The notes under the pieces were generated by a model that saw only the letters and a program-made list of their open reading frames with translations, was not told where the DNA came from and searched no databases. The position numbers and the translations under genes are program-made. 42,849 nucleotides of DNA from Nioella nitratireducens (lineage in GTDB: Bacteria > Pseudomonadota > Alphaproteobacteria > Rhodobacterales > Rhodobacteraceae). The stretch is taken from assembly GCF_001879715.1 (NCBI RefSeq), contig NZ_MNBW01000022.1:1-42849 (forward strand), written 5' to 3'. Below are positions 7,361-42,069 of the stretch, piece after piece; within the stretch, counting starts at the first letter, position 1; each line of letters begins with the position of its first letter.

Positions 7361-7423
7361 GCATCGCGTTCTGGCACGAGCGCACTATTTAAGCAAGGCG
7401 GGTGTTTCTTTAACAGTGGGACA

Positions 7424-7449
7424 GGCTGTTTAGGCTGCCCTAAATAGCC
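7424..7449. repeat. Palindrome upstream of fic
   Basis: GGCTGTTTAGG, loop CTGC, CCTAAATAGCC: 11-base arms with one G-T wobble. It lies 64 bases before the fic start and 40 bases after the HNH-like stop. Operator for the Fic winged helix or a weak terminator; there is no T-run. Confidence 0.45.
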
Positions 7450-7489
7450 GGTAAGTCGTTTTATGTAAATTGATACCACATCCGGAACG

Positions 7490-9266: not shown

Positions 9267-9269
9267 CCC

Positions 9270-11467: not shown

Positions 11468-13797
11468 TCCAAATCCACATCCGGCTTCATGAGACGGAGG
11501 GAGCAGGTCGCTCGAATGATCTCGTCGCGGTTCGCGGTCTCCAGGTCGCGAGAGGACTGGTTCGCTAACCAGAGCGTATCTCCCAGATAGGCCTCATAGC
11601 GGGCGGCTAGACGACGCCGAGCCTCCTCATCGATATGGTCGGCGCCAAAACTAAGGGTCTCATAGGGGTCCGACCAATACTTGCCATCGAAGAACAGTTC
11701 TGGATGCCGAGTGAAGGTCGCGACGACAGCCTGAGGATCCATATACTCCCAGAAACGGCCTTCGGAAATCACCTTGGGCACATCCAGGACCCCGCGCGCG
11801 GCCATTCTTCGCGCGACATGCTCCCGATCGGGCTTCGAGAGCTCGGCGTAGTATGTTTGACCTTGACCCTCCGGGATCAGATGCGCCACCGCCTTCGCGA
11901 ATTCCTCCAGGCCCGTGTTCGCCATCGAAATGACTTCGGACGGCTCCAGTCGTGTCGCGCTGGCATAACTCGAGCGGTAGTCGGCGAGAATATTCGCCAG
12001 CGTCACGTCATGCACCTGGCCTTTCAGGAAATCCAGGGTCTGTACCGAAAGTTCGGTCAGTAGCGCGTCCATGGCGGTCATCGTCGTCGACCGAAACACG
12101 TCATGGGTCGGGTTGATCACGAATGCGTAGGTTCGGGTCGCGACGTCATCGAGTTCAAACGACCAGGGGAGACTGCCCGTGAGCGCCTTGTCCGTTGGAT
12201 CCGAGGCGAAGGCTTCCACTTGGAACTCGACTCGATAAGTGGGGTGCACGTATTTGCGCGATAGCTCATGAATCTGATTGCGCTCCGCCGTCTTCTCGGC
12301 GGGTTCCGGCACTGGCGCGGCACTCGAGCCATCGGTATCACTCCGCGAGCCGCCGTCGCCCGACGACCCGCCCTCGCCATCGTCAAGGAAGCCATCTGGA
12401 AGGTCAGTGTCGCCACCCTCCCCCAGAATTTCTTTGTCCTGCTCCTCTACCAGTTTCCACCACCGCTCGTCGTCAAGATAGTCGGCGTCGTTCTCATAGA
12501 ACGACTGGGCCATCTGCTCGGACCGATCATTGTCCTTGACCACGAGCACCCTTGACCACAGACCGTTCTTGCCTTGCGGGCTGGAGCGCCGGAACGCCTG
12601 GAACAACTTGTAGAGAGGGCTCGTGTTGCCGTCGAAGCCACTTTGCTTCGCCGCTTGCGGTCGTAGTGGGCCCTCTCCCCGGACGACGCGGACCATCTCC
12701 TCCCAAGACGGATCGTCCCGCTCGAAACGATCCTTGGTGTAGCTTACGCGGCAATGGTCGAGATGAACCTCCCCCACGAAACGACCGCGGCTTCGCGGAT
12801 CGTCAATCGGATACTCTATCTCCGCATTGTCCCCGTTGTTCCAAGTGAAGAGGTCTTTCGAGCCGATCTCGATCTTGCGGCCGTTCCGGATGAAGTCGAT
12901 ACCGAAGTCAGATTTATGCAAATAGCGTTGGAGGCCAACCCATCCTTTCACCCGGCGTTCCGTCGTGACGATCTCGCAATTCGGGCCGCCGTTCGGGCAT
13001 TGCTCCTCATCGCCGTTCAACGCCCGCATGCAATGCGTGCAATAGCGTCGGGCCGCGAGCGCAACGTCGAAGCGCTCGACGGCATGGACAACCGTCCCGT
13101 CGCTCAGCTCCACCGATCGCTCGGGATCCCAATGACAATGGCGTCTGGGATCCACCTTCGTTCCATTGACTTTAAGCCTAACCCGGCCAGCGTCAGACTC
13201 GCGCAAGATCGCGGAATAGGCTCGAGCAAGGTTTTTGCGGATCGTCCCAAGATTTGCCGACCTCGCGAGATAGGCGCGCTGGTCGGGCTTCAGCTTTGTG
13301 ATGATGATTTCGGTCCCATGCTGCGCGTGGTCCGGCTTCACCCTTGTTTGCCGAGGTGTCTTGTAACTCTGGCTCGCTCGAAGGCCTTCGAGGTCGATAC
13401 GCACACCAACCCACTCTGGCTCGCCAGCGCGGGTGGTCCAGACTTCTGTTACCGTGCCGAGCCGAGCGGTGGCAATGTTGAAACCCATGCCGAACAGCCC
13501 GAGGTTAGTCAGAGGATTGTTGCCCGACCACCCAGCTCGAACCGCGCGTTCCAATACATCGATCGCCATCCCGGGGCCGTTGTCTCGGATGGAGAGACGT
13601 GCGTCGCTCTTGTTCGAGGTGGGGATCGTGATCGTGATTTCAGGATGTTCTATCATCGCGCCAGATCGAGCCGCCCCTACGAAACCATCAATGCTGTTGT
13701 CAATCAGTTCGGCGATGCAACGCCACTGGTGAAGATTGATCTCACCGAGCATCTGCAAGACGCGGGCATCGGGAGTAAGGTCAAATTCTTGAGTCAT
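11464..13797 (-). CDS. GHKL/MORC-like ATPase with zinc motif (777 aa)
   Basis: Bergerat-fold ATPase: the N box AELIDN (E30, N34), DNGPGM at residues 72-77, GLFGMGF at 100-106 and HGTEI near 160. It is related to MutL, Hsp90 and MORC proteins. A four-cysteine insert, CTHC at 253-256 then C267 and C274, probably forms a zinc ribbon in the transducer part. Residues about 465-510 are an acidic, glycine/serine-rich linker, and the last 250 residues are a helical domain not recognised. The ATG at 13797 is chosen over a GTG nine bases upstream because GGTGG precedes it. First gene of the five-gene operon, probably an ATP-gated clamp acting with the helicase. Confidence 0.85.
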   Translation of the reverse strand: MTQEFDLTPDARVLQMLGEINLHQWRCIAELIDNSIDGFVGAARSGAMIEHPEITITIPTSNKSDARLSIRDNGPGMAIDVLERAVRAGWSGNNPLTNLGLFGMGFNIATARLGTVTEVWTTRAGEPEWVGVRIDLEGLRASQSYKTPRQTRVKPDHAQHGTEIIITKLKPDQRAYLARSANLGTIRKNLARAYSAILRESDAGRVRLKVNGTKVDPRRHCHWDPERSVELSDGTVVHAVERFDVALAARRYCTHCMRALNGDEEQCPNGGPNCEIVTTERRVKGWVGLQRYLHKSDFGIDFIRNGRKIEIGSKDLFTWNNGDNAEIEYPIDDPRSRGRFVGEVHLDHCRVSYTKDRFERDDPSWEEMVRVVRGEGPLRPQAAKQSGFDGNTSPLYKLFQAFRRSSPQGKNGLWSRVLVVKDNDRSEQMAQSFYENDADYLDDERWWKLVEEQDKEILGEGGDTDLPDGFLDDGEGGSSGDGGSRSDTDGSSAAPVPEPAEKTAERNQIHELSRKYVHPTYRVEFQVEAFASDPTDKALTGSLPWSFELDDVATRTYAFVINPTHDVFRSTTMTAMDALLTELSVQTLDFLKGQVHDVTLANILADYRSSYASATRLEPSEVISMANTGLEEFAKAVAHLIPEGQGQTYYAELSKPDREHVARRMAARGVLDVPKVISEGRFWEYMDPQAVVATFTRHPELFFDGKYWSDPYETLSFGADHIDEEARRRLAARYEAYLGDTLWLANQSSRDLETANRDEIIRATCSLRLMKPDVDLE

Positions 13798-13941
13798 GTT
13801 TTCCACCGATCAGGCACCACTCACTACGAATTACTGGAGTTTCGTGTGTTAAGAAAGCTTTTGCCTGAGGAATCTGGAGTTTAGGTGTTTGATCCCACGG
13901 TTTGTTGATGCGATCCTTTCGAAGGAATGGAAGGAAGCACT

Positions 13942-15241: not shown

Positions 15242-16459
15242 CTAAGCGACCTCGGACTCGTTCAGCCTCGCGGCAACGCTCTCGCCGACAACTCGCGCAA
15301 GCTCCGCTGGAACGGCGTTCCCCAGTTGTCGCATGCATTCGGTCCATGCGCCGTGAAATTTATACCCATCTGGAAACGTTTGGATTCTAGCACCTTCGCG
15401 GACCGTGAAGTATCGAACCGAGCCATCGGCCCTGCGCAGCATGTTCTCTCCGCCGGGCACGCCGTGAACTCCCGCCTTAAGAGTTTTTGCTGGCTCGTCA
15501 AGATAGCTCCCGGTATGGCCTGGATAGGCCTTCGCGTTTGGCTGAAAACGATGATCCGAGACCATTTGCGAAGTTTTGGCTCTCTCCGGGTCCGGCAGAT
15601 CTCCGATCGCGTCCCGCGTCGTGCGCCACGGCAGACTTTCCGGTTTTTCTTCGACAGATAGGCGCTTCGACAACTGCAGTGCCCGCCCTTCGAGAATCCG
15701 GTCTTTCTTGGCAACGCCGTGACGCTCCCAGTAGCCACCGAACATCTGATCCCAAACGAGCGCGTCCTGCGTGAAGTCGCCCGGCCCAAATGACCACCGC
15801 GCGTCCACATCGTCACGGAACCCAACAAACAGTACGCGCTCACGTTTTTGCGGCACACCGTAGTTTGCCGAGTTGAGTAGCTTTGTAACCACTTGATAAT
15901 GGAGTCCCGGACGTCTCGTCGAGGTATGGTGTTGCTCAAGGCGGCAAAGGTGCTCCTGCCACTCCTCATCAGGTCGAGCTACGAGTTCAGGGTGCTCCAT
16001 CTGGAGTTTCACATATTCAAAATAGCTAAGGAACGATGCCCGGGTTAGTCCTTTCACGTTTTCGAAGACGAACGCACGAGGGCGAGCTTCCCGAAGCGCG
16101 CGCACAGCCTGCGGAAACATGTCCCGAGCATCATCGTATGCACGATGTCGGCCTCCCAAGCTGAACGGCTGACAGGGTGGACCGCCTGAGATTAGATCGA
16201 GCTTTCCCGCAAACTGCATAAAATCGACCTTGCGGACGTCGCCCTCGACGACGCGCCATGGACGCTCTCCCTTTGGCCGACCATCATCACCAAGAATTCG
16301 GTGGTTGTCGCGAAGGGTATCGCAGCACCATTTGTTGTACTCGACAACCATTTGCGGAACGAAACCCGCCTGCGCGAGTCCTATCCCAAGTCCGCCTGCA
16401 CCCGCGAAGAGCTCCACCGATTTTCGGAACAAGGGCTTGGCAGGCTGTTTGCTCGACAT
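15242..16459 (-). CDS. DNA C5-cytosine methyltransferase (405 aa)
   Basis: Protects host DNA from the partner endonuclease. The standard motifs are all present: VELFAGAGGLGIGL (residues 15-28) binds SAM, GGPPCQPFS (92-100) holds the catalytic C96, ENVKG begins at 133, QKRERV is at 204-209, and the last motif contains QLGNAVP. The variable region between about 215 and 330 would set the target. AGGAGGAG precedes the start. It is the first gene of the pair, so methylation is made before or with the endonuclease. The similarity to M.Eco29kI-type enzymes is by context and general match. Confidence 0.93.
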   Translation of the reverse strand: MSSKQPAKPLFRKSVELFAGAGGLGIGLAQAGFVPQMVVEYNKWCCDTLRDNHRILGDDGRPKGERPWRVVEGDVRKVDFMQFAGKLDLISGGPPCQPFSLGGRHRAYDDARDMFPQAVRALREARPRAFVFENVKGLTRASFLSYFEYVKLQMEHPELVARPDEEWQEHLCRLEQHHTSTRRPGLHYQVVTKLLNSANYGVPQKRERVLFVGFRDDVDARWSFGPGDFTQDALVWDQMFGGYWERHGVAKKDRILEGRALQLSKRLSVEEKPESLPWRTTRDAIGDLPDPERAKTSQMVSDHRFQPNAKAYPGHTGSYLDEPAKTLKAGVHGVPGGENMLRRADGSVRYFTVREGARIQTFPDGYKFHGAWTECMRQLGNAVPAELARVVGESVAARLNESEVA

Positions 16460-19058: not shown

Positions 19059-22000
19059 TCAAGACCCTCCACGTTCCTGTAGTCCCGTCACAGGACAACG
19101 CGCGAGCAGGCGCTCCAGAACGGCAATTCCGGTAGGGTCGGTCGGACAGAAGAGGCGAAGCTTCCAGCTAATGATCTCTGAGAAGAAGCCATCGGCCTTA
19201 AGCCGGTCTTTGGCGGCCTCGGAGAAACCGGACAGCTCGATCCGGTTCACGCCCATGACGCGGGATCGGTGGAGTTCCATCCCCTCGGCGAGCCGCACGA
19301 CCGTCTTGCCCTCCAGAACGAGGGCATGGACCTGCGCCGCCGTGAGCTTCGGTGCGTCGTCAGCAAGCGTGGTCGCGACCCAGCCGGGCGAAACCCGGCG
19401 GCCGATAATGCGTTGACCGTCGTCAGTCTGCAGCCGGTAGACGCGGGTTTCGTCCTGGGGGAGCTGCTTCCAGATCGGCAGCAGCAGACCCGCCACGATG
19501 TGCAGCGTGGCTTCCGAGAACTCGGGCACCTCGGCCAGTTCCGCGGTCCAGGCGACGGCGAAGGCTGCACGGTCAGCCTCGAGCCAGTGGGTGTCCTCCA
19601 TGATCCTCGCCGGGACTGTGCTGGCCTCGGTCGGGCGGATCAGGCGCAGGCGCGGCTCGATGGTGCCATCGTCCAGCATCAGGCTGGTGGCGGGCACCTG
19701 CACGGCGGCCCGACCCGAGCGGCTGTTGACCAGCAGGCGTGTCTTTGGATCGTCGAGCCAGTCAAGCGCATCCGCGAGCGCGGTCGGCGTGTTCCGCCGT
19801 TTCTCCGCGATGCTCAGCAGCTGGGTTTCCGCGCCGGAGCCGGGATGGGTGTAGATCACCCGCGCATCCGTGACGCGAAAGCTTTCGGCGCGCAGCGTCT
19901 CGAGCCCGAGGTCGTAGACCCCGGCGGCGATAGCACCCTCGATCCGTTGGTCGAGGAGTTCCTCGAAGGCCGAGAAGAGCGCGGCCTGCATGTCGATCGT
20001 CAGCGCCAGCAGGCGATTGAGGAAGGTGGTGATGGGTGGCAGGTCGTCCTTCAGACCGTTGTCATCGGTCAGGCTGAGACCTGTCGCGTCCTCAAAAGCC
20101 CCGAGCGAGCAGCCCGCCACATCGCCGCGATGAATGCGGCGGTAAAGCTGGCGCAGGGCGTCGCGGGCATAGGGGCTCTCGAGGTTGTCCTCGGGTCGGA
20201 ACAGCCCCTGCCCGCCGGTCTGGCGCTGGCCGCGTGTGATCGCCCCGAGCGTGTCGAGGCGACGGGCGATGGTGGAGAGGAACCGTTTCTCCGCCTTCAC
20301 ATCCGTGGCGACAGGTCGGAAGAGCGGCGGCTGCGCCTGATTGGTGCGGTTGGTGCGCCCGAGGCCCTGGATCGCGGCATCGGCCCTCCAGCCGGGCTCC
20401 AGGAGGTAGTGGACCCGCAGGCGCTGGTTCTTGGCACCGAGGTCGGCGTGGTAGCTCCGCCCGGTGCCGCCGGCATCCGAGAAGATCAGGATACGCTTTT
20501 CGTCATCCATGAAGGCTTGGGTCTCGGTGAGATTTGCCGAGCCAGCCCGGTTCTCCACCACGAGCCGTGCTGAATGCCCTTCGCCCTTGCGCACGATGCG
20601 CCGCGAGCGCCCGGTGACCTCGGCCACGAGATCGGTGCCGAAGCGCTGGACGATCTGGTCGAGCGCCCCGGGGACGGGCTGCAACGAGGCGAGCCTTTCG
20701 ATCAGAGCATCGCGCCGGCTTACAGCATCCCGGCACTCGACCGGTTGACCGTCCCGCGTGACGGGACGCGAGGACAGATTCCCCTCGCTGTCTGTGAAGG
20801 GCTCATAAAGCTGTACCGGGAAGGAATGGGCGAGGTAGTCCAGGACGTATTCCCGCGGAGTGATGTCACAGCGGATGTCGTTCCACTCCTCGGCCGGAAT
20901 CTCCGACAGGCGGCGTTCCATCAGCGCCTCACCCGTCGAGACGATCTGGATGACCGCCGCGTGACCCGCAGCCAGATCGGCATCGATGGATGCGATCAGC
21001 GTGGGGGTCTTCATCGAGGTGAGCAAATGGCCGAAGAAGCGCTGTTTGGCGCTCTCGAAAGCTGACCGCGCGGCGGATTTCGCCTGACGGTTCAGCGTGC
21101 CGCTCTCGCCAGAAATGTTTGCAGCCTCCAACGCCGCGGTCAGGTTGTTGTGAATGATGGCGAAGGCCCCGGCATAGGCATCGTAGATGCGGCGCTGCTC
21201 CGGGGTCAGCGCGTGTTCGAGCATCTCGTATTCGACACCATCATAGGATAGCGATCGTGCCGTGTAGAGGCCGAGCGCCCGGAGGTCGCGGGCCAGAACC
21301 TCCATCGCCGCGACACCGCCAGCCTCGATGGCTTCCACGAATTCCGACCGGGTAGCGAACGGGAAATCCTCCCCACCCCAAAGCCCGAGACGCTGCGCAT
21401 AAGCGAGGTTGTGGACGGTCGTTGCGCCCGTGGCAGAGACATAGACCACGCGGGCATTCGGAAGTTTGTGCTGCAGGCGCAGACCCGCCCTGCCCTGCTG
21501 CGAGGCCATGGTATCGCCCCGCTCGCCTTTGCCCCCGGCGGCATTCGCCATGGCATGGCTTTCGTCGAAGAGGATCACCCCGTCGAAATCCGCCCCGAGC
21601 CAGTCGACGACTTGGTCGACGCGGGATTTCTTGGCACCCCGTTCTTCCGAGCGCAGCGTCGCATAGGTGGTGAAGAGGATGCCCTCGGTCAGAGGAATGT
21701 CGCGGCCTTGTGCGAAACGCGACAGCGGCGTCACCAGAAGCAGCTCCTGGCCAAGCGCCGACCAGTCGCGCTGCGCGTCCTCCAGAAGCTTGTCGCTCTT
21801 CGAGATCCAGAGCGCCTTGCGGCGGCCTTGGCACCAGTTGTCGAGCAGGATCCCAGCCGACTGGCGGCCCTTGCCCGCTCCGGTGCCATCGCCAAGGAAG
21901 AAACCCCGGCGGAAGCGGACGGCGTCCGCGGCATCGTCGGGCGCGGCCGAGACCATGTCGCCGGTTTCATCGACAGTCCAAGACCCCGCGATATACGCGC

Positions 22001-23420
22001 CATGCGCCTCGCCCGCGTAGATCACGGTCTCAAGCTGCGCGTCGGACAGAAGGCCATCGCGCAGGATGGCGGCTGGAAGCTTGGGGCGGTACGTGGGTTT
22101 CGGCGGTGCGACAGAGGCCATGGCCGCCGATTGCACAAGCTTGGTCGGGTGCGATGCGGCGTCTGGGATGTCGATAGCCTGCAAACGGAAGGTCTCGTAG
22201 ATCGCGTCGGACAGCCGTGCGGCGTCTTCGTCCTCGGCGGCGTCGCGAGTTGCGTAGTCCAGTTCCTCGGCCTCAATCGGCGTTTCGGGTTTCGCTGGTT
22301 GAGCTGCGGAGGTCGCGCGCGATCGGCTGACGGGTTTGCGTGTGGTGAGGGCGGGGTTTCCCGGGAAGAGGGAAGAACGGCTCTCACATGCCGTTGCGGC
22401 CTGATCCAGTTCGAGACGCGGCGGAACTTCGGCGGTTATCCGGGCGAGGAGATGCGCTACATCTGGAGACATTGGCTGACGCAGGTCAGCGGTGACGCCA
22501 CCCATCTCGCCACCATGGCATTTGTCGAAGACCGAAATCCGGGTCTCGAAAGTGGTGCCATGCATGGCGAAAGCCGCCCCCGACACAGCGCCGGTGAAAA
22601 CCAGATGCGCGGACTCGGTCAGGCGGGTGAAGGTTTCGGCCCAGGCTGGAGCGTCGGGCGCAAAATTCGCACCCGTGATGGCGACCAACCGTCCTCCAGT
22701 GGCCAGCCGGGCAAGCGCCGATCGCAAGTGCCGCGCTGTCGCTTCGGTGCTGCGGCCATCAACATTGGCCACGGCGGAAAACGGCGGGTTCATCAAGATA
22801 ACGCTCGGGCGAACGCCCTCGTCGAGATGATCGTCGATCTGCGCGGCATCGAAGGTTGTGACGGGATCCCCTGGAAAGAGGAAGCGCAGAAGATCAGCGC
22901 GGGTGTCAGCTAGCTCGTTCAGCGCAAGGCTGCCCCCCGCGATCTCGGCTAGGACCGCCAGGAGTCCGGTCCCGGCCGAAGGCTCGAGGACCAGGTCGCG
23001 GGGCTGGATCTGCGCCGCTGCGAGCGCCGCGAGCCCCATCGGCAGCGGCGTCGAGAACTGCTGGAACCGCTCCATCTCCTCCGAACGCCGGGTATGCGTG
23101 GGCAAGAGGCCCGCCACCTTGGCGAGGATCGGCAGCAGCGCAGCGGGTGAGCCCGCCCGGGCCAGAAGGGCGCGGCCGAACTTCCGCAGGAAGAGGACGA
23201 GCGCAACCTCGCCCGCCTCATAGGCGAGCTTCCAGTCCCAAGCGCCATCGGCATCGGAGCCGCCAAAGGCGCGCTCCATCTCAAGCCGCAGGCGCAGCGC
23301 ATCGATCTGAAACCCTTGGGCCAGATCGGGCTGAAGAGCTTCGGCGACGGCGAGGATCGCAGGCGCGAGTTCAGCGGACGGAACTGCAACGGGAGGCGCA
23401 ACGGGCACGAGATAGGTCAT
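19059..23420 (-). CDS. Methyltransferase-strawberry-notch helicase fusion (1453 aa)
   Basis: The N-terminus (about 110-300) is a class I SAM methyltransferase: LVLEPSAGTGLLAVL (motif I near 146-152) and the adenine-type catalytic motif NPPF at 211-214. The middle and C-terminus are a strawberry-notch-type SF2 helicase: GDGTGAGKG at 510-518, DESH at 619-622, and a late helicase motif GLGRTNRTNQAQPP. Such fusions are common on alphaproteobacterial plasmids, often with the Toprim primase seen here. The N6-adenine target of the methyltransferase is inferred from NPPF. It shares an SOS-box region with the divergent gene at 23598, so damage control is possible. Confidence 0.9.
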   Translation of the reverse strand: MTYLVPVAPPVAVPSAELAPAILAVAEALQPDLAQGFQIDALRLRLEMERAFGGSDADGAWDWKLAYEAGEVALVLFLRKFGRALLARAGSPAALLPILAKVAGLLPTHTRRSEEMERFQQFSTPLPMGLAALAAAQIQPRDLVLEPSAGTGLLAVLAEIAGGSLALNELADTRADLLRFLFPGDPVTTFDAAQIDDHLDEGVRPSVILMNPPFSAVANVDGRSTEATARHLRSALARLATGGRLVAITGANFAPDAPAWAETFTRLTESAHLVFTGAVSGAAFAMHGTTFETRISVFDKCHGGEMGGVTADLRQPMSPDVAHLLARITAEVPPRLELDQAATACESRSSLFPGNPALTTRKPVSRSRATSAAQPAKPETPIEAEELDYATRDAAEDEDAARLSDAIYETFRLQAIDIPDAASHPTKLVQSAAMASVAPPKPTYRPKLPAAILRDGLLSDAQLETVIYAGEAHGAYIAGSWTVDETGDMVSAAPDDAADAVRFRRGFFLGDGTGAGKGRQSAGILLDNWCQGRRKALWISKSDKLLEDAQRDWSALGQELLLVTPLSRFAQGRDIPLTEGILFTTYATLRSEERGAKKSRVDQVVDWLGADFDGVILFDESHAMANAAGGKGERGDTMASQQGRAGLRLQHKLPNARVVYVSATGATTVHNLAYAQRLGLWGGEDFPFATRSEFVEAIEAGGVAAMEVLARDLRALGLYTARSLSYDGVEYEMLEHALTPEQRRIYDAYAGAFAIIHNNLTAALEAANISGESGTLNRQAKSAARSAFESAKQRFFGHLLTSMKTPTLIASIDADLAAGHAAVIQIVSTGEALMERRLSEIPAEEWNDIRCDITPREYVLDYLAHSFPVQLYEPFTDSEGNLSSRPVTRDGQPVECRDAVSRRDALIERLASLQPVPGALDQIVQRFGTDLVAEVTGRSRRIVRKGEGHSARLVVENRAGSANLTETQAFMDDEKRILIFSDAGGTGRSYHADLGAKNQRLRVHYLLEPGWRADAAIQGLGRTNRTNQAQPPLFRPVATDVKAEKRFLSTIARRLDTLGAITRGQRQTGGQGLFRPEDNLESPYARDALRQLYRRIHRGDVAGCSLGAFEDATGLSLTDDNGLKDDLPPITTFLNRLLALTIDMQAALFSAFEELLDQRIEGAIAAGVYDLGLETLRAESFRVTDARVIYTHPGSGAETQLLSIAEKRRNTPTALADALDWLDDPKTRLLVNSRSGRAAVQVPATSLMLDDGTIEPRLRLIRPTEASTVPARIMEDTHWLEADRAAFAVAWTAELAEVPEFSEATLHIVAGLLLPIWKQLPQDETRVYRLQTDDGQRIIGRRVSPGWVATTLADDAPKLTAAQVHALVLEGKTVVRLAEGMELHRSRVMGVNRIELSGFSEAAKDRLKADGFFSEIISWKLRLFCPTDPTGIAVLERLLARCPVTGLQERGGS

Positions 23421-33018: not shown

Positions 33019-34493
33019 TATTTTGTTGAAAAACTCGTGCTTGATCGAAGCGTAAGTTACTGATTCAATTCTTCGGACCGGCGGGAGAATTGAGCAATGT
33101 TGGGACCGAGACAGGAAGCGCAGGCTGCACTTTTCTACGAGTTCTCGCTTGAGGATCACGTCCCCATGGATCACCTGCTTCGATCCATCGACCGTTTTGT
33201 CGATCTGAGCAGTATCCGCGCCTACCTTGCGGATTTCTACAGCCATACAGGCCGTCCGTCGGTCGATCCCGAACTGCTGATCCGGATGCTGCTGGTCGGC
33301 TATTGCTTCGGCATCCGGTCGGAACGGCGGCTGTGTGAAGAGGTGCATCTGAACCTGGCATATCGCTGGTTTTGCCGCCTGGATTTGAGCGACCGGGTCC
33401 CTGATCACTCGACGTTCTCCAAGAACCGGCACGGGCGTTTCCACGACAGCGAATTGCTGCGCCACCTGTTCGAGACGACCGTCGCTCGGTGCATCGAGGA
33501 AGGTCTGGTCAGCGGCCAGCGCATGGCCATCGACGCCAGCCTGATCGAGGCCGATGCGCCCCGTGCGGTGCGCGAGTATCTCGAAACGCTGGACGAGGCA
33601 GCGTTTGGCGCCGCCAGCGAGGTCCAGCCCAAGTTCACGTCGCATTCCGACCCGGCCAGCCAGTGGACTGCGGCGCGCAAGGGGCCGGCATTCTTCAGCT
33701 ATTCCGACAACTACCTGATCGACACGGATCATGGCGTCATCGTTGATGTCGAGGCGACGCGGTCGATCCGGCAGGCCGAAGTCGGATCGACCAAGACCAT
33801 GCTTGATCGGGTGAAGGCCAAGTTCAACCTGCATCCCGAGCGCCTGATAGCCGACACCGCCTACGGCACCGGACCGATGCTGGGCTGGCTGGTCGACCGC
33901 AAGATCGCCCCGCACATTCCGGTGCTCGACCATTCCGGGCGCAGCGACGGCACCTGGACCCGAGCCGACTTCGAGTGGGACGCCGAGAACGATCAATACA
34001 TCTGCCCCGAAGGCCTCGAGCTGAAGCAGTTCCGCCGGAACTACTCCGATCCGAACCGGGGACCGACCGGCAAGGGTGTCGCCAAATACCGCTGCTTGAA
34101 ACACACCTGCCAGGCCTGCCCATCGAAGTCACGCTGCTGCCCCACGTGGACTTCCGCTCCATCACCCGCGAGGAACACGAAGACGCCCGTCAGGCCGCCC
34201 GGGATATCGCGAAGACCAGGCAATACGAGATATCGATGAAGCTCCGGAAAAAAAAGGTCGAGATGCTTTTCGCGCACCTCAAGCGCATCCTCGGGCTCGG
34301 AAGGCTTCGACTACGCGGCCCATGCGGTGCAAAAGACGAATTCCTGCTCGCCGCCACCGCCCAGAACCTTCGGAAGTTGGCCAAGATCTTTCCCGCACCG
34401 CAGCAAGTGCGAAAAGCCTGACAGAAAAGGCGCTTGCGCCGCTTTCGGATGCCAGGATTCTGCGCTCGCGAACGGGTGTTTTTCCACAGAATC
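33019..34493 (+). mobile_element. IS1182-family insertion element, degenerate ends
   Basis: Holds a frameshifted transposase. Imperfect terminal repeats are suggested by TATTTTGTTGAAAAACTCG (33019-33037) against the complement of 34474-34493, about 14 of 20 matching. The exact ends and a target duplication cannot be seen. It is inserted between the broken hns and the ubiquitin-like operon. Confidence 0.6.
33097..34421 (+). pseudogene. IS1182-family transposase, frameshifted
   Basis: The first part (33097-34140) has the family's VDPELLIRMLLVGYCFGIRS, DHSTFSKNRHGRF, MAIDASLIEADA and LIADTAYGTG. Near 34138-34150 the reading shifts by one base; the other frame then gives VDFRSITREEHEDARQA, KKKVEMLFAHLKRILGL and EFLLAATAQNLRKLA to the stop at 34421. 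The two parts together equal the normal length of about 440 residues. A single-base loss explains it; programmed shifting is unlikely because no slippery run is present. Confidence 0.85.
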
Positions 34494-34645: not shown

Positions 34646-35011
34646 TCATCTTTGCCCCAGATTGGAAGGCCGTCCACCCCGACACCAGTTTATCTCCCCT
34701 TTCTTGATCCAGAAATGGCATCCACATGCGTTCTTCTGGTGGATGGAAGGATGTACGGTGGGGCGGGACCAGAAATCTTCGGTGATCCGCCACCGCGGTC
34801 GTTGGTTTGGGTTAAGAGAAAGAGTGATGAGTTCCCCGCATCCGCCCGGACAGTTAAGGCAGGCCCACTTCTTGATATCGCCGTTTTCTACGACGGTGAG
34901 CTCCTCCGGGGCGATCATCGACCGGTCTGGTATCTTTGGTGCGCGGGTCGTCAAAAAATCGAAACGCAGAAGATGCAACCGACGGAAAAGTCGTGTGATC
35001 ATGTGTTTCAT
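34646..35011 (-). CDS. DUF6527 zinc-binding protein (121 aa)
   Basis: Cys-rich core: WACLNCPGGCGELITLSL (C51, C54, C58), RPRWRI, then ACGCHFWIKKGEINWC (C96, C98, C110). This matches DUF6527 proteins, found with bacterial ubiquitin-like systems. The basic N-terminus (ITRLFRRLHLLRFDFL) may be partly signal-like or an RNA/DNA-binding tail. One base separates its ATG from the JAB-E1 stop (TGACATG), so it is co-translated with it. Role unknown; it may recognise targets or act as an E3-like factor (inference). Confidence 0.8.
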   Translation of the reverse strand: MKHMITRLFRRLHLLRFDFLTTRAPKIPDRSMIAPEELTVVENGDIKKWACLNCPGGCGELITLSLNPNQRPRWRITEDFWSRPTVHPSIHQKNACGCHFWIKKGEINWCRGGRPSNLGQR

Positions 35012-35012
35012 G

Positions 35013-36404
35013 TCAACTCACCACATCCAAAAATGGTTGCATGTCAGCGCGGCCGAGCGTCGCTTCCTGGCTGCAACAAGGGCAATCCGGTTGCGGTTCA
35101 ACCAAGGGCTTACGTTCGTCTCGGGCGTGAAATCGCCGCATGCGGGTTGGCAACATACCGGCCTCTCCGGCAAGTCCGGTTATACCCGCCAGCCACTCAT
35201 TGACCGCCATCGCTCCGGCCTCGGTCGTAAAAGTTACCACGGCTGGAGATGGATCGCCCTCGCCCAAGACGTAGGCTTCCTCTTTCAACCGCTGATAGCT
35301 ATCGGGATCATCGCGTCGTAACGTTTCTTCCCGGGCTCGGCGCGGATCGACATATCCGCCGCACAGCAAGCAAGGGTGACCCGGCACAAGTGTCGAGACC
35401 CGGGCAAAGAGGTCGTATGCAGTTTCCGTCCGTCGCTGCATGGCCAGCCCGACGTCGATGACAGGGATGCCGTAAAACCTTGCAAATCGATTCAGAAACA
35501 GCCGACCTGCATGATCGTCTGTGCAACAGAAAATCACGTCGCAGGCTTTGAGTGCTTCCCATGTCACCGGGTCTCCGGCCCAAGCGTCGACGCTTACCAA
35601 CTTCATACCGAGAGCCGATTCCTCGACAGTTCGTGCGTGAATATTGGTCTTTGGCAACTTCGCATCAGCATCTGATCGCCGCGCCCCGTGGAGGCGGTTG
35701 AGATTGGTCAGGTCCACTATGTCTTTGTCGAATTGGACTGCCTCTTTCACTCCAAGCCGCAAAAGCAGCGGTAACACCGCACTTCCAGTTGCGCCGCCGC
35801 CAGCGATTCCGCAGCGAAAGCCTGACACTTGCAGTGATGCATCGTCGCCGAAAAGCCGGACCTGACGATCCAAGAATTTCGCCGGAGTTCCGGTGAGACC
35901 AGAAATCCGTAAGCGCGGTCCAGAATGCAGAATACGTCCAATTTCGACAGCATTTTCAGTTGTTGTCCAGATCCGAGCGGCGAGGTCGCCATTCTCTGCG
36001 ATAATAATGCTCACCAGACCCTGCATTCCCTTCAATAGGGCTGTGCGGGCGAGTTCGGCTTCGTTACGGTCATCCTGTTCGGAAAAACGCGCTTTGCCCT
36101 TCGGGTGGGTATGAACGAGAGCTGGGGTGAGGCCAGTCGTCTTGGCTTCGTTTAGTAGTCGCATGAATCCATCGGTTTGCCAGGTGACATGGCGCCCCGA
36201 CGCCGACACGAGTTCGTTATCGCCAACCGGATCGAACCGATGCGAAACCAAACGCCGCCGAGGTTGATTTGACCATGGATCACACTCGATATCAGCAATG
36301 CCAAAAAGCATGTAGGCCGAGCGCTCCGATCCTGCCCCTGCCGTGAGCAGGGACTGGATTTGCGCCTCATGCGGCTCCAAAAGGATGAGGTCCATGGCAT
36401 CCAT
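35013..36404 (-). CDS. JAB peptidase-E1 (ThiF) fusion (463 aa)
   Basis: The N-terminal half is a JAB/MPN+ isopeptidase: E27 in GSERSAY is a candidate first ligand, and LVHTHPKGKARFSEQDD gives H98, H100 and D111. The C-terminal half is an E1-like adenylating domain: IAGGGATGS (202-208), FDKDIVDLTNLNRLHGARR, and DVIFCCTDDHAGR. Two cysteine pairs, CLLC at 345-348 and CPCC at 441-444, would hold structural zinc. Combined, the protein could activate and trim ubiquitin-like proteins. The start ATG overlaps the stop of the Ub-E2 gene (TGATG). No clear E1 catalytic cysteine can be assigned. Confidence 0.88.
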   Translation of the reverse strand: MDAMDLILLEPHEAQIQSLLTAGAGSERSAYMLFGIADIECDPWSNQPRRRLVSHRFDPVGDNELVSASGRHVTWQTDGFMRLLNEAKTTGLTPALVHTHPKGKARFSEQDDRNEAELARTALLKGMQGLVSIIIAENGDLAARIWTTTENAVEIGRILHSGPRLRISGLTGTPAKFLDRQVRLFGDDASLQVSGFRCGIAGGGATGSAVLPLLLRLGVKEAVQFDKDIVDLTNLNRLHGARRSDADAKLPKTNIHARTVEESALGMKLVSVDAWAGDPVTWEALKACDVIFCCTDDHAGRLFLNRFARFYGIPVIDVGLAMQRRTETAYDLFARVSTLVPGHPCLLCGGYVDPRRAREETLRRDDPDSYQRLKEEAYVLGEGDPSPAVVTFTTEAGAMAVNEWLAGITGLAGEAGMLPTRMRRFHARDERKPLVEPQPDCPCCSQEATLGRADMQPFLDVVS

Positions 36405-37258
36405 CAGGCCCGTGCCTCCGCTAGAGCAGTTTGAACGCGGGCGACCATGGTTTGCAGACCATCGACCCCCGGACGCCAGGCAGTGTTGTGGCGCGACCAA
36501 CGCTGCCAAACGCGACCACCAAAACGGTGCTCAACAGTACAAGCTTTTGGAACTTGGCCCGTGTCCACCAGGGTGAGCTTCGGCGAGACATAGAACATGT
36601 CCGGCGAGCAGTCGGGATAGCCCCTGGGAAGTAGGATCAGAACGTCAGCCGACAAATGGTCGAACTTGCCCGCCGGAAGCGGCACAGCTTTCAGGATGGT
36701 GCCTGTGTTGCCGCCCTCTGTCACTACTTCGAACTCATACCCATGACCGGAAAGGTAGATTTGGTCCTTCGACGGAAGGGCATCGCCCTCCGTCGTTTGA
36801 TCAATCAGTGACACGAACCGCTCAACGCCGGCATCGGCCAGGTTAATTACATCCGTATCGATGATCTTCTTGTCATGCTGCCCTGGGATCTCTTGCCAGA
36901 GATTGTAGTTGGGCGGCAGTTTGGCCAGTTTGCGCAACACGAAGCCACTGACGCAGGCTCGGGGCCATTCGAGATCAGCGTCGTCGATTTTGAACTTGAA
37001 GTTGCGATCAGAGCGGGCGACCAGCACTCTCTCGATACCACGACCGCGCAGATCATAGCTTTCGTCGAGCCGGATGTCTTCGAAGTCGCCGTTGGGCAGG
37101 ATTGCGATGGCCACATGTTCATCAACAGGGTGCCCATCAGCGGCTTCGATCAACTGGCGTCCCAGAACCTTGGGATCGTCGAAGACGTGTTTCTTGAAGT
37201 TGAGGTCCTCATCGGCGATGAGAACACGGAAGCGAGGATCATTTCCTTGCGGTTTCAT
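36404..37258 (-). CDS. Tandem ubiquitin-like repeats fused to E2 domain (284 aa)
   Basis: Residues about 9-84 (FRVLIADEDLNFKKHVFDD to VLVAR) and 86-151 (FKFKIDDADLEWPRACVSG to GVERFVSLI) are two ubiquitin-like units of the multiubiquitin type. Residues about 160-284 look like a prokaryotic E2 of family E: VLILLPRGYPDCSPDMFYVSP, then VWQRWSRHNTAWRPGVDGL. C217 and C240 are the candidate active-site cysteines. No di-glycine follows either repeat. The start at 37258 has AAGGA eight bases upstream and lies 69 bases after the helicase stop. Translationally coupled to the JAB-E1 gene. Confidence 0.85.
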   Translation of the reverse strand: MKPQGNDPRFRVLIADEDLNFKKHVFDDPKVLGRQLIEAADGHPVDEHVAIAILPNGDFEDIRLDESYDLRGRGIERVLVARSDRNFKFKIDDADLEWPRACVSGFVLRKLAKLPPNYNLWQEIPGQHDKKIIDTDVINLADAGVERFVSLIDQTTEGDALPSKDQIYLSGHGYEFEVVTEGGNTGTILKAVPLPAGKFDHLSADVLILLPRGYPDCSPDMFYVSPKLTLVDTGQVPKACTVEHRFGGRVWQRWSRHNTAWRPGVDGLQTMVARVQTALAEARA

Positions 37259-37327
37259 ATTGTTAGTCCTTGTAGTGTTACAGAACGCAGACCCCATGTC
37301 TGCGCCTTCACAAGGACAATCGCGGCG

Positions 37328-40300
37328 TCAGGAAGTATCCGGTAAGCTAGATCCAATCTTTTTTCTCAGCGTGCCGGATGGCGGCGGATTGCAGATGAAA
37401 AAGTAAGGGCACCGCGCACATCGATCACTACGGTTTGGTGGGAACCTTCCCTCGATGATGGAGATCGCGGCGTCCGCGATCTTCTTCTTTCTGGTGCTGA
37501 TTTTACCCTCTGACATGTTCAAACGATCCCGATCACCGCCCGTCAAATACACGAATTCCGCTTCCCCACGCCCTTCTGCCGCAATCTGAAACGCCGCAGC
37601 ATCGAGCGCATCCAATGCTGTGCTCGTCTTGCGTCCCGTGCGGATACGTCGGAAAACCGTCGCGTGACCGGTCTCGATCTCCTCATGGGCCGACACGACA
37701 ATCTCCGCATCTTCAAACCTAAGCGATAGGGATTGGGGTACCTTCCGGGTCTCACTCCGCCGAAGCTGGAAGAAGAACTGCAACAAATCATCGGAAATCT
37801 GTCGATACTCGGCGGCGTAGCCATGCTCCGTAGGTCCATGTGCGACCCAGGCAGCTTCGATGATCGTCCTTAACTCTGTCTCGTCCGGCATCTCGGCGGG
37901 TCGCGCCGTCAGTTCATCAACGACAGCCTGCACAGCATTATGCATCCGCATGGGCGCCGACTCCATGCGACGCCCCCCAACTTGAAGAACATGAGCAAAG
38001 AAAAACCGCCGTGGGCATTTGTCGAAGGTCGCCAGTTGCGACGGCGACATACGGGCTACGCCATCGACTTGCAACGTGAAGCGCTCAGCCTCTCCGACAA
38101 CATCTCTAACTGCGGAAATCGGCTCTTGAATTGACAGTTGGCCGGAGATGTCGTCGACAAAACTGGACCGACTCTGCCGATAACCATTAGATTTTTTGCT
38201 GGGCGCGTATAGGAACAGACCGTCTTCTGCCCGGGATAGCGCAACGAAGAACAAACATCGCTGTTCCTCATCATGGCCGGCATCTATTGCCTCGCCGCCG
38301 CGAAACACCGGGCCCTCGATCATGCCATCCGGCGGGGGAAGGCCGCGGCTTTGTTTGGCCGAGCGCGGGATCGAGCCGCTTGTTAAAGACGGAAGGTGTA
38401 GCACCTTGAACTCAAGACCCTTGCTCCCGTGGATCGTCATCAGACGAACAGCGTCTATGCTCTGAGCAGCGCTAGGAAGATCGCGCAAATCGCGCTCATC
38501 TGAGAGGATCACCAACCGTCGGATGTGTTCCAGAAGGTCGCGGACTGGATATCCTGATTTTTCCGGGAGAGCGGAGCGCAGAAAGTTCTGGAACTGCCAG
38601 AAGGCAAGCGCGGGGTTGGCGTTGCCATCACGAGCCTGCTTTGCAATATCGGCCGCAAGCCGTGTGCGATCCAGATAGATCTTCGTGATCACTTGCCAGG
38701 CGGTCGCCGTGGGCTCGATCCCGTCGAAAGCGTCGATAAGGGCTTTCGCCGAGGCTTGGCTACTTTCGCTCAACCCATCTGCCGCATCCAAAATGGTCCG
38801 CCAGTTGAGAGGAAGGGGCTTCTTCGTGTCCCGGATAGCCTCGATTGCCAGGGCGATATCTTCGATGGGCATCTGAAATGACCGCATTGAGGCGACGCAT
38901 GTCAGTCCCATTGCTCTGGGGTCGACCACGAGCGACAGGAGCGATAGCGCTTCCTTGATTTCCGGTCGGTCGAATAATGGCCCGAGGAACAGAACAGGGA
39001 TTCCACGCGCCTCCAAACCAGCGGCGATCTCCGCCAACCGCGCATTTCCCTTGCAGATGACCGCTTGATCACGAAACGAGCCCATATCAGCTCGGGCAGC
39101 GGTTATGCGGGCAGCTATTTCGTCGACCTCATGGTCCTTCGACTCCACCGAAAGGAAAGACGGCGCTGCACCGTTGTTGCCCTTGAACGCATGCGCTTGG
39201 AAACTGGTGGCCTCCATTCGAATTTTTGCAAAAGTGCTGAATGCATCGCAGATTTCCTGGGACGAACGGTAATTGGTGCTGAGTTGCATTGAAGTTCCGC
39301 CGGGAAAGTCGTCCGTCTCGAACCGGTCGATATTGTAAGACGACGCGCCCCGGAAGCGGTAGATGGATTGCTTGGCGTCTCCCACAACCCAGAGGTTGCC
39401 ACCATCTGGTTTCAGAGCGCGCAAGAACCGCACGCTGGCGCGGTTCACATCCTGATATTCGTCCACAAGAACGTGCTCATACCGATCCTGAAGGTCCTTG
39501 CGCACGGCTTCGTCGGATTCGACCAATGCCGTCGGGCGCGCGACGAGATCACCGAAATCGACCGCGCCGCGCTCCAACTTCAGTTGCTCATAAAGGTCGT
39601 AGACCGACGCAATCTCTAGACATTTCTCAGCGGCAATCTGGTCTTCCTCCGTGTCCGCGGCATCAGCCATCTGCTGCGCCAGTACACGGTAGCGATGTTG
39701 GTCGACGACCTCGTCCTTGGCGCGCGAGATCGCTGACAGGATGGACCGCAGGTTGTCGGTCGGGTCCCAGAGATCATTGAAATGCGTCAGCCTCAGGCGC
39801 GGAAACTCGTCTTCGAGAAGCGCAATCGCTTCGGTCGCATCGATCAGACGTGGGTCTGGAGGCAAGTTTGCGCGGTCGTGGAACCGCCGCAGAAGATCGA
39901 GCCCGAAGGAATGAAACGTCCCGATCCATGCGGACCCGGCCGCTTCTGGCCAAGCCAACATGGCGCGATCCGTCATTTCACCGGCGGCCTTGTTCGAGAA
40001 GGTCAGAAGCAGAATGCTCTCGGGCTCGACGCTGCGGTTCTTTAGAACGGACAATCTGCCGACGAGCGTTTGTGTCTTTCCAGTTCCCGGCCCGGCCTTC
40101 AAAAGTAGGGCCTTTCCTTCGTGTTCTGCTGCCCGCTTTTGTTCTTCGTTCAAAGGCTTTGGCGGTGATACCGTATCTTTGTCAGGTTCAATCGGCGGAA
40201 GAAGAAGTGCGTCGAACAGTTGGACCGCCACCATCGGGTAGGGAGCCCCAAGCCGTTTGGTAATCTCTTCTGCGCTCAAGCACTCTTCGACATGCCAAGA

Positions 40301-40741
40301 CCAGGCGAGAGCACGCGGAAACAGAAACTCACGTGCAAACAGATCCATTTGGACCTCCTCGCGCGCACGATTGCTGTAGTCGACCACACGTTCCCCACCC
40401 ACCGATGATGGATCTGCGGAACGCGCGGGGTCGATCTCCATGGTTGGCGGAATATCCACTTCACCGCCAAACTCGTGGTGTCCAATCTCATGTGCGACCA
40501 AAAATGCATCGAGAAACGCGTTCCCGGTGTCTTCATGCAGAATAGTTGCGGACGTTTTCTGAAGAACAGCCCGCCCGCCTTTAAGTTGCGGATTACCTGC
40601 AGGGCGTTTCCGGACTTCCAGATCGCGTCGTTTGGCCTCGCAAAGCGCAAACTCATAGGGGCGGTTTGGGTCGCCACCTTTCTCTCGACACTGCGCGTGA
40701 AGGTCAGCCGCGCACGCTCTTATGGTTTCAATCCGATCCAT
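37328..40741 (-). CDS. ImmA/IrrE protease-UvrD helicase-RecB nuclease fusion (1137 aa)
   Basis: Three parts in one protein. Residues about 1-185 are an ImmA/IrrE-type zincin: [12 protein letters not shown] (HEIGH at 84-88) and [16 protein letters not shown]. Residues about 197-850 are a UvrD/Rep helicase: AGPGTGKT at 216-223, [26 protein letters not shown] and HGSKGLEFK. The last 250 residues resemble a RecB/AddB nuclease with an iron-sulfur cluster: a first cysteine in [13 protein letters not shown] and the C-terminal set C1108, C1111 and C1117; [11 protein letters not shown] is the likely active-site strand. Its start overlaps the HTH-like gene by 14 bases. Probably a regulated DNA-degrading motor. 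Confidence 0.88.
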
Positions 40742-41276
40742 CGTCCGCGAGCAACGTATTTAACGCGCGCCGCTCCTCCTCGGTCAAATCAGCATGTTCG
40801 ACATAGGTCTCGAATCCGATAGGCGCCTCATTACCTGGTTTCCCATCGGACTTCATCGCAACGGCCTGCCCATCTCCTTGCTGCATGCCGCTGATCACGT
40901 CTTGAATGTGCACATCCAGCTTTTTTGCCAGCGCCTTCAACAGCCCCAATGGCATCGAAGCAAGATATACGATGTCGGCATTCAGACCGGTAAAAAAGCC
41001 TCGGGGAAGGCCAAGGTCACGCGCAAATTCTCGTAAACCGCTGCCAAACAGTGTTTGCCGGACATGTTGGACGCGCAGGACCTCCGCGCTCATGGCCTTG
41101 GTCTCAAGCGAAAGGCTCGCCTCTGCAACCTCCAAATCGTTCATGGAAAGTTCGTTGAACAGCGCGAGGAGGTCTTGGGTGTATTCCGGATAGCGTTGGA
41201 GATACACTTTCAGCGTTTCAGGCGACAACTCCTCTTCGATTGTGAAGTCGTTAAGAACATCATCTCTATTTGCCAT
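40728..41276 (-). CDS. HTH-like regulator preceding the fusion protease (182 aa)
   Basis: The middle of the protein ([20 protein letters not shown], then [21 protein letters not shown]) looks like an Xre-type helix-turn-helix, and the first 75 residues are acidic helices ([16 protein letters not shown]). It overlaps the sigma-like gene by 11 bases and the fusion gene by 14, so the three are made together. ImmA/IrrE proteases typically cut a partner HTH repressor, so this is a candidate substrate of the fused protease domain (inference). Not a recognised named family. Confidence 0.65.
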
Positions 41277-42069
41277 TATCTATCTCCAGCGCCAGTGCTT
41301 GCCGGATCTTCGCAAAGGCTCGGTCGCGCCGGTTGCGTGCAGTCTTCTCCACGCAGCCCAGAAGCTCCGTCATCGAGCGTTCGCCATCTTTGTTCGTTTC
41401 AATTGGAATGTCTGCGAGCATCAAATCAATCACCTCTCGTTCATCTGTCGGTAAAGCGTTAATCGCACGGCGCACATGAATCCGGTAATCAAGATCGTCC
41501 TCAGCTGTGAGGTTACCCCTTTTATAGCGTTCTAGTGCCGCTTCGACGACGGCACGCACTTCGCCAGTGACCGCGTCCTCGACGTCCTCACTTGCGTTTT
41601 CCCGACGGTTCACCTTGCGGAGCTTCGTGATGTGCGCCGACCGCACCGCTTTGTCGAAGACGACCTCGTAGATATCGAGTTGCTCGTCATAGTTCTGCCT
41701 ATCGGTGAACATCAGCTCGGTGACATGATCTACCGTCGCGTCACGGATTTCAGCGAGGCGCGCATCTTCATGGATTTTGTCGCCAACTTGGCGGCTTGCT
41801 CGTGGGCACGCCGCTTCGACCCGATCGCGCAATATATCGTAGAGCCGAATGAACCGACCGTCCGCGTTGTCTGACTTTGTCTGGCGCAAATAGAACATGA
41901 GAACTTCTGAAGGCACATATTGACTATGTCGCCGGTCTCTTATGGCTGCGCTGTCCATTAATTTCTCGAACGACCATGTGAGGCTCATTTCAATATATTC
42001 GGTGATCAGCGGGCGTCTGGTATAAAATTCGCCGCTGATTTTACGTTTTCTTAGTGGATCAATACTCAT
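41266..42069 (-). CDS. Sigma-70-like transcription factor (267 aa)
   Basis: The C-terminal 65 residues match sigma region 4: RRAINALPTDEREVIDLMLA, then SMTELLGCVEKTARNRRDRA and FAKIRQALAL. The first 190 residues contain aromatic and charged helices (ITEYIEMSLTWSFEKLMDS, FYLRQTKSDNADGRFIRLYDI) that could be a divergent region 2. First gene of the minus-strand operon; it could switch on the downstream helicase and ubiquitin-like genes. The ribosome site before the ATG at 42069 is weak. Alternative: a sigma-like HTH without sigma activity. Confidence 0.7.
   Translation of the reverse strand: MSIDPLRKRKISGEFYTRRPLITEYIEMSLTWSFEKLMDSAAIRDRRHSQYVPSEVLMFYLRQTKSDNADGRFIRLYDILRDRVEAACPRASRQVGDKIHEDARLAEIRDATVDHVTELMFTDRQNYDEQLDIYEVVFDKAVRSAHITKLRKVNRRENASEDVEDAVTGEVRAVVEAALERYKRGNLTAEDDLDYRIHVRRAINALPTDEREVIDLMLADIPIETNKDGERSMTELLGCVEKTARNRRDRAFAKIRQALALEIDNGK

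Follow-up and report, generated by a model that had tools for sequence, protein, structure and literature searches.

A six-gene locus of Nioella nitratireducens and its relatives: a sigma-like factor and an M78 protease-helicase fusion beside ubiquitin-like conjugation genes

This study focused on six adjoining genes on a contig of Nioella nitratireducens (NZ_MNBW01000022.1, assembly GCF_001879715.1; positions 1 to 42,849, the whole of which is referred to here as the window). They are named P1 to P6 in the order of their transcription, and all six open reading frames (ORFs) were present on the minus strand at the coordinates of an initial annotation made from the sequence alone. The spacing given there was also correct by the ORF list: P1 and P2 overlap by 11 bases, P2 and P3 by 14, and P4 and P5 by 1, while P5 and P6 are separated by a single base and P3 and P4 by 69 bases (37259-37327). 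Two copies of a promoter-like sequence and a possible RNA hairpin accompany the genes, giving the following features:

41266-42069, minus strand: P1, sigma-70-like factor of 267 amino acids with a C-terminal region-4-like domain
40728-41276, minus strand: P2, 182 amino acids, predicted to be mostly helical, possibly with a CI/Cro-like helix-turn-helix (HTH); putative protease substrate and P1 inhibitor
37328-40741, minus strand: P3, M78 (IrrE/ImmA-type) protease, UvrD-type superfamily 1 (SF1) helicase and PD-(D/E)XK domain (Pfam Peptidase_M78, UvrD and PDDEXK_1)
36404-37258, minus strand: P4, two ubiquitin-like (Ubl) domains fused to an E2-fold domain (Pfam Multi_ubiq and Prok-E2_E)
35013-36404, minus strand: P5, JAB/JAMM peptidase fused to an E1-like ThiF adenylyltransferase (Pfam Prok-JAB and ThiF)
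34646-35011, minus strand: P6, zinc-binding-type protein (Pfam DUF6527)
41461-41488, minus strand: promoter-like site 1, TTACCGG-N16-CGATT, within the 3' part of P1 and upstream of P2-P3
37318-37345, minus strand: promoter-like site 2, TTACCGG-N16-CGATT, spanning the P3 stop codon and upstream of P4-P6
37266-37317, minus strand: leader hairpin of two stems, the 3' outer arm of which includes the AAGGA ribosome-binding site of P4

Relatives of the locus were sought in GTDB contigs with an M78-domain profile built from 15 P3 proteins, which recovered 201; the GTDB counts given here are for the best 80 of the 201, and as these include near-copies they are not counts of independent events. P1 and P2 lay directly upstream of P3 in 80/80 loci, the three P3 domains were in one ORF in 74/80, and ubiquitin-like conjugation genes followed within 7.5 kb downstream of P3 in 75/80, or 75 of the 77 with enough DNA. 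The five loci without them are three whose contig stops within 3.3 kb and two with a truncated P3 gene. Ubl, E1, and DUF6527 genes occurred in that order in 67 of the 75. The downstream type seen in the window (Ubl and E2 fused, JAB-E1, DUF6527) was found at 19 loci, and a second type, with a longer Ubl protein lacking that E2 and another type of E1, at 50, of which 48 also had DUF6527; the remaining sets comprised five with E1 and DUF6527 but no recognised Ubl, and one with JAB-E1 only.

This arrangement is far beyond chance. The initial annotation had proposed one six-gene system that joins sigma and regulator, protease-helicase, and conjugation parts, and had named in advance, as the result that would speak against it, halves that were almost never neighbours elsewhere; they were adjacent in 75/77 loci and the gene set was conserved in unrelated genomes. 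Because ubiquitin-like genes lie downstream of P3 in nearly every locus with room for them, P3 and the conjugation genes are regarded as one system. That two independent modules came to be adjacent by chance in a defence island might be argued from the mobility of both halves, and from the occurrence of the conjugation half without P3 in 26 of 33 loci sampled by way of Multi_ubiq (see below), but with those 75 of 77 loci, and a promoter-like motif shared between the halves, such chance adjacency is effectively refuted.

The plasmid picture is drawn from the regions examined, set against totals of 177 E2 and 86 M78 records. The gene order of the window was found on 11 of the 15 P3-bearing plasmids examined, from Roseovarius, Agrobacterium, Klebsiella, four rhizobial hosts, Cereibacter, two Acinetobacter, and the cyanobacterium Leptolyngbya, with P3 split in one of them (L024). 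Among the other four, L025 is interrupted by insertion sequences, and in L021, from Robbsia, P3 and the conjugation genes are divergent, the orientation also seen with standalone proteases, and this layout looks like an intermediate. In the last two the P1-P2-P3 trio is followed by a different cassette, with DUF7665, a weak Prok-JAB match, and an E1-like gene (L023:12507-15441 and L026:14521-16847), which suggests that the trio is a portable controller. A tree of P3 (89 rows, 82 of them different) mixes Pseudomonadota, Planctomycetota, Verrucomicrobiota, Myxococcota, and one archaeal bin (L089), although L046, from a Verrucomicrobiales bin, is identical to L045, from a Hyphomonas bin, and such labels may be binning errors. 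Recent transfer is suggested by identical P3 copies in several genera; seven loci (L075 and L077-L082), titled Bradyrhizobium, Sphingomonas, and other bacteria, share one P3 sequence, as would follow from very recent transfer or from mobile islands. Several plasmid records also carry defence-type neighbours (AbiEii, a Shedu domain, and methyltransferase/helicase genes). The system is followed by a caspase-family gene in Leptolyngbya (L018:15984-18558) and by a TnsD-family gene on the Klebsiella plasmid (L016:15515-16528).

P3 was studied in an alignment of 89 proteins longer than 1000 amino acids, including that of the window, to which six of the 80 GTDB loci contribute none. The M78 residues H84, E85, and H88 (HExxH, 84-88) and E138 were invariant in 89/89, and the M78 profile was homologous to those of standalone M78 proteases (hhalign probability 83.6). 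The SF1 helicase motifs were likewise kept, namely Walker A, DE-Q-D, and later ones. An AlphaFold2 model of P3, with a predicted local distance difference test (pLDDT) score of 86.5, matched the structures of UvrD, AdnB, and AddAB. Four cysteines (909, 1108, 1111, and 1117), kept in 88-89 of the 89 proteins, form a probable metal (Fe-S-like) site, and together with the C-terminal PD-(D/E)XK domain they recall AddB/Cas4. The nuclease core has fared differently. The PD-(D/E)XK protein that L027 encodes next to the system reads RDYKTG where P3 reads RRxRTG; position 1032 is never acidic in 89/89, lysine stands at 1034 in 8/89, and the catalytic D...D-x-K is absent. The register of this comparison comes from hhalign at a very low probability, because one side is a single sequence, and is supported by the flanking R, T, and G and by the Pfam PDDEXK_1 match. 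Since none of the 89 proteins retains the catalytic acid, the domain is probably catalytically dead, and the label of nuclease first given to it probably wrong in function; an active nuclease was ruled out as a role for P3 by this loss.

P1 of the window matched sigma region 4 weakly in Pfam (E 0.036), but 14 of 15 relatives matched Sigma70_r4_2 at E up to 0.1 (best 2.6e-8), and the best solved match of the family profile in the PDB was the sigma factor FliA (E 4.7e-5). Judged by this region 4 homology, P1 is a sigma-70 relative, in agreement with its first labelling. The HTH label first given to P2 is weakly supported. The window protein had no Pfam match, and among 65 relatives HTH_26 was matched weakly by eight (best E 0.03) and Phage_CI_repr by three (best E 0.0013), amid scattered weak matches to unrelated families. 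The AlphaFold2 model of P2 was nearly all helical (pLDDT 69). Searches of the PDB with profiles of P2 and of the M78 domain, and with the P3 C-terminus, returned nothing useful.

The gap between P3 and P4, with a median of 81 bases in 76 loci, was assessable for the motif TTACCGG-N16-CGATT (site 2) in 91 of 96 loci. Around it the motif was exact in 71/91 and within one mismatch in 87/91, and the spacer was 16 bases in 87 of the 89 loci with no more than two mismatches. Among 1820 shuffled pieces there were no exact matches and one with a single mismatch; in another 1820, picked at random from the loci themselves and so possibly overlapping real sites, the counts were 11 and one. The 4.0-Mb genome of the window has the exact motif only twice, at 37345-37318 and 41488-41461, with six more places at one mismatch. 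Both sites, with at most one mismatch and a spacer of 16, were present in 73 of 75 assessable GTDB loci. Since site 1 sits in coding DNA, its codons were tested without conditioning on the motif: in P1 genes that keep the Tyr, Arg, and Ile, the codons TAC, CGG, and ATT occurred together in 75/81, where the remainder of those genes would predict 0.031, and the Ala codon was GCG in 92/95. In some divergent loci both sites are altered in the same way, as in L130 (TTTCCGG and CGATTA at both, with spacers of 15 and 16) and L026 (CTTCCGG and TTTCCGG at sites after P3 and upstream of P1, both with a 17-base distance to CGATTA). Twelve other genomes gave six exact matches and two for a reversed control. 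Three of six other P3 genomes had the exact motif at the operon (five matches), G692 had a single match on another contig, and two had none; six multi-ubiquitin genomes without P3 had no exact match (0/6).

The simplest reading is that P1 recognises the two halves of the motif as its -35 and -10 elements, in front of P2-P3 and again in front of P4-P6. A consensus scan of the window gap found no sigma-70-type promoter, as would be expected if P1 were the sigma factor, and no terminator on the operon's strand; crude terminator-like sites were seen in 4/76 gaps, that of the window not among them. The initial annotation had held that a terminator and a separate promoter in the 69-base gap would divide the locus. 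A promoter-like element is indeed predicted there and a terminator-like site on the operon's strand is not, and because a matching element lies inside P1, upstream of P2, the gap element ties the halves together rather than separating them. Upstream of P1 itself, a k-mer pair search for a conserved motif reached at most 9/67 (5-6 in shuffles) and yielded no pair clearly resembling -35 and -10 elements, and TTACCGG-N16-CGATT with up to two mismatches occurred in 8/92 stretches. An alternative, considered unlikely, is that P1 is a DNA-binding activator or repressor acting at two sites, with P2 as a CI-like co-repressor and the motif as an operator. Several P1 relatives are annotated as response regulators, the family has weak NarL/GerE-like matches, the HTH_26 and Phage_CI_repr matches of P2 would suit a co-repressor, and sigma region 2 was not clearly found (no region-2 Pfam model matched in 15 relatives, one of which matches an extracytoplasmic function (ECF) model), a point that tells against a sigma factor. 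However, the motif consists of two dissimilar halves kept 16 bases apart in 87/89 sites, which resembles a -35/-10 arrangement, and it is a sigma factor, FliA, that P1 matches best among solved structures.

The leader between site 2 and P4 may fold. After removal of near-copies, 38 of 71 leaders were left, and when tested against shuffles 35 of these had folding z-scores below -1 (mean -2.95); the window leader alone scored -4.36. The P4-type ribosome-binding site was paired within the fold in 29/38.

In the conjugation genes, two Multi_ubiq stretches were found in P4 and three in the Ubl protein of L027. Across 27 sequences no cysteine of the E2-fold domain is invariant, the best columns reaching 17/27 and 14/27. 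P5 keeps the JAMM residues H98, H100, S108, and D111 at 95% or more in 27 sequences, and the DUF6527 protein P6 has C-x3-C and C-x2-H conserved at 90% in 87. L027, the only second-type set scanned, has an E1 with DUF6791 instead of JAB. The longer Ubl proteins of the second type (50 GTDB loci, for example L050 and L051) end in ...NVTxTxx-Ser, not Gly-Gly, in 50/50, so they may be processed, or their chemistry may differ.

The reverse question, which controllers accompany multi-ubiquitin operons, was approached through Multi_ubiq in 398 phylum-level genomes (15 positive) and 390 order-level genomes (19 positive); two genomes were shared and one had two loci, giving 32 genomes and 33 loci. An M78 protease was nearby in 26/33, with presence called partly from small home-made profiles at E up to 0.01: seven had P1-P2-P3 and 19 another M78, either standalone or HTH-fused. 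Of the rest, one had a CapK/CapS-like pair, two had Xre-RES pairs, one had only a sigma-like gene before the contig end, and three had nothing recognised or a contig end. Prok-E2_E was positive in 4/385 genomes at class level; among these, the two further strong ones (L131 and L132) comprised one P3 locus and one locus with a standalone protease. On plasmids, multi-ubiquitin operons were accompanied by trios of sigma-like, small protein, and ImmA genes (L011, L012, L110, and L112), GNAT-like/HTH/ImmA sets (L013 and L113), HTH with ImmA (L114 and L015), a weakly matching CapK/CapS-like pair (L116), an AAA-S8 pair (L111), or an HTH gene only (L115). Single-chain HTH_3-M78 fusions lie divergent to multi-ubiquitin operons at L138:6627-7910 and L141:6641-7819, by Pfam, and at L137:9037-10215, called by 98.7% identity to L141; they are another joined form of a CapH/CapP-like controller (compared below). 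At L120:8939-10031 and L145:7015-8344 the M78 controller is replaced by a pair of Xre antitoxin-like and RES-domain genes that lies divergent to a multi-ubiquitin operon. The sampled loci and the plasmid examples agree that the conjugation operon takes interchangeable controllers, with P3 standing in the place of the M78 protease.

These loci bear on what P3 does. It could be an effector, its motor attacking or stripping invading DNA and its protease cutting a target or the Ubl, with conjugation tagging P3 or its target and P1/P2 setting basal expression only. PADLOC models of UvrD-type defence proteins (the DRT-associated helicase and Gabija GajB) do match P3, and the helicase motifs are strongly kept. 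Against this, the nuclease core is lost, P3 lies behind the same predicted promoter as P2, and the same class of operon elsewhere has a helicase-free M78 protease beside regulator genes, so an effector role is rather unlikely and the protease-helicase is most likely part of the switch. The roles first proposed for the locus are thereby partly retained: the proposed regulator-protease switch is kept, while the helicase, which had been grouped with a nuclease as a possible target of conjugation, most likely also belongs to it.

A mechanism can be proposed from gene content and order, their conservation, the protease and helicase motifs, the lost nuclease motif, the two sites, and the hairpin potential, all of which are observed in the sequences. 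P1 would be a sigma factor specific to the system, acting at two promoters of its own that precede P2-P3 and P4-P5-P6, and P2 would restrain P1 or its promoters. P3 would be the sensor, its UvrD-type motor, assisted by the apparently dead PD-(D/E)XK domain, engaging DNA ends, gaps, or other aberrant DNA; this is suggested because a protease of a type reported in two systems to be activated by single-stranded DNA (ssDNA) is fused to a motor that makes or tracks ssDNA. ssDNA formed or held at P3 would activate the attached M78 protease, leading to cleavage of P2, and the freed P1 would switch on P2-P3, as feedback and reset, and the conjugation genes. That P2 is an inhibitor removed by the protease and then reset is suggested by its position adjoining the sigma-like P1, behind a P1-type site. 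The hairpin over the P4 ribosome-binding site may further gate translation of the conjugation genes, which would be the output, most likely in defence against phages or mobile elements or in protection from DNA damage. From the observed features we infer the use of the sites by P1, the part of P2 as inhibitor and substrate, the DNA trigger, the direction of signalling, and the biological purpose. The central proposal, in which P3 on aberrant DNA cleaves P2 and frees P1 to transcribe P2-P3 and the conjugation genes, as one inducible mobile system, is judged to stand evenly balanced between right and wrong. The fuller form, a motor-coupled protease switch in which a single chain reads the state of DNA through its helicase and cleaves the inhibitor that restrains the system's own sigma factor, so that a ubiquitin-like pathway is turned on via two dedicated promoters and an RNA leader, falls slightly short of that balance. 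As to purpose, the system may protect or maintain the plasmid or cell after DNA damage rather than act against phages, which would be compatible with the same switch. The plasmid contexts in the examined records favour such a role and the defence-type neighbours noted above speak against it, leaving it plausible but on the doubtful side.

Several observations weigh against the proposed switch, or parts of it. The motif at two mismatches is no commoner in the window genome than a reversed control (186 vs 195), and three of the six species-sampled P3 genomes other than that of the window have no exact match at the operon; of these, L130 and L146 have one-mismatch forms and L121 only three-mismatch forms. 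The Robbsia locus, L021, has P3 with a different sigma-like gene in its divergent layout, and no motif. The P2 model found no confident fold match in the PDB, and profile comparison detected no homology between P2 and the genes in the middle position of standalone-protease loci, so common ancestry with these was set aside. Part of the nuclease motif survives in P3, H934 being invariant (89/89) and D1019 present in 70/89, with His in the window. A longer, 101-base stretch around the window leader has a z-score of only -1.21, and RNAalifold gave no common structure for the leaders, for which reason single-sequence z-scores are relied on and covariation is not claimed; the leader element could be a DNA operator instead of an RNA hairpin. 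No relative was confirmed among viral contigs by a scan seeded with patterns, and as there was also no phage DNA match a viral origin was rejected.

In the window, transposase-type ORFs occupy 33097-34421 (DUF772/DDE in 33097-34239) and stop some 220 bases short of P6; the 3' side of the operon thus abuts an insertion sequence. Further away, regions 60-1898, 6191-13806, 15242-16459, and 19059-23420 encode a relaxase, Fic, PIN_8, a DEAD/Mrr helicase beside a GHKL ATPase, a cytosine methylase, and a strawberry-notch-type helicase. The surroundings are those of a mobilisable, defence-rich element.

If the switch operates as proposed, it would be self-contained and SOS-independent, coupling protein tagging to DNA damage or invasion, and mobile elements would have carried it across phyla. 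The locus offers a predicted sensor, substrate, sigma factor, and promoters at base resolution, which makes the signal path directly testable.

Parts of the locus have known counterparts. The available text of Iyer, Burroughs and Aravind (2006, PMC1779556) describes class 6e operons of multi-ubiquitin, E2-like, JAB-E1, and metal-binding proteins, which P4-P5-P6 match part for part (tandem Ubls, of which the class has two or three, an E2-fold without an invariant Cys, JAB-E1, and a small metal-binding protein). P6 resembles the metal-binding protein Y, for which that text gives H-x2-C as the second ligand pair, where DUF6527 here has C-x2-H. The part with the sigma-like factor, P2, and the protease-helicase is not described in the text available, and the words helicase, UvrD, and sigma have no occurrences in its main text. 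Bacterial ubiquitination-like (Bub) operons, as far as given in the accessible text of PMC13373217, are controlled by CapH+CapP, CapW, or CapK+CapS, with CapW or CapH+CapP at 219 of 544 operons, and they share with the present locus a ubiquitination-like operon adjoining a swappable DNA-damage controller. In the same text helicase does not occur and UvrD appears only in connection with excision repair. As a weakly matching CapK/CapS-like pair precedes the multi-ubiquitin operon in L116, we infer that Bub operons are those of class 6e. They differ from the locus described here in that its CapP-like protease forms one protein with a UvrD motor and is accompanied by a sigma-like factor with its own promoter-like pair.

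The protease itself resembles PprI/IrrE, which acts with DdrO, and CapP, which acts with CapH. In the text available PprI is activated by ssDNA (PMC10904395) and CapP likewise (PMC13373217, PMC10904395), and both are M78 proteases with ssDNA-triggered cleavage of a transcription regulator. P3 has the corresponding HExxH and downstream Glu in 89/89, with P2 adjacent, the HTH matches of which are weak; the proteases described in those texts are not helicase-fused, whereas here the regulator pair also includes a sigma-like protein. With AddAB/AdnAB/RecB and Gabija GajB, P3 shares the SF1 UvrD fold, but it has lost D-x-K and gained an M78 protease and ubiquitin-like partners, and there is no GajA gene among the six. 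A helicase-fused M78 controller was not found in a literature search that excluded the 2024-2026 Bil/Bub papers, whose tables may hold such a fusion. The operon is therefore new only in part, contrary to its first description: the conjugation half (class 6e) and control by CapH+CapP were already known, and what appears to be new is a single protein that combines an M78 protease, a UvrD-type motor, and a PD-(D/E)XK domain that seems to be dead. As a sensor, a protease in covalent linkage with a DNA motor would be unusual and would differ from the free CapP and IrrE proteases.

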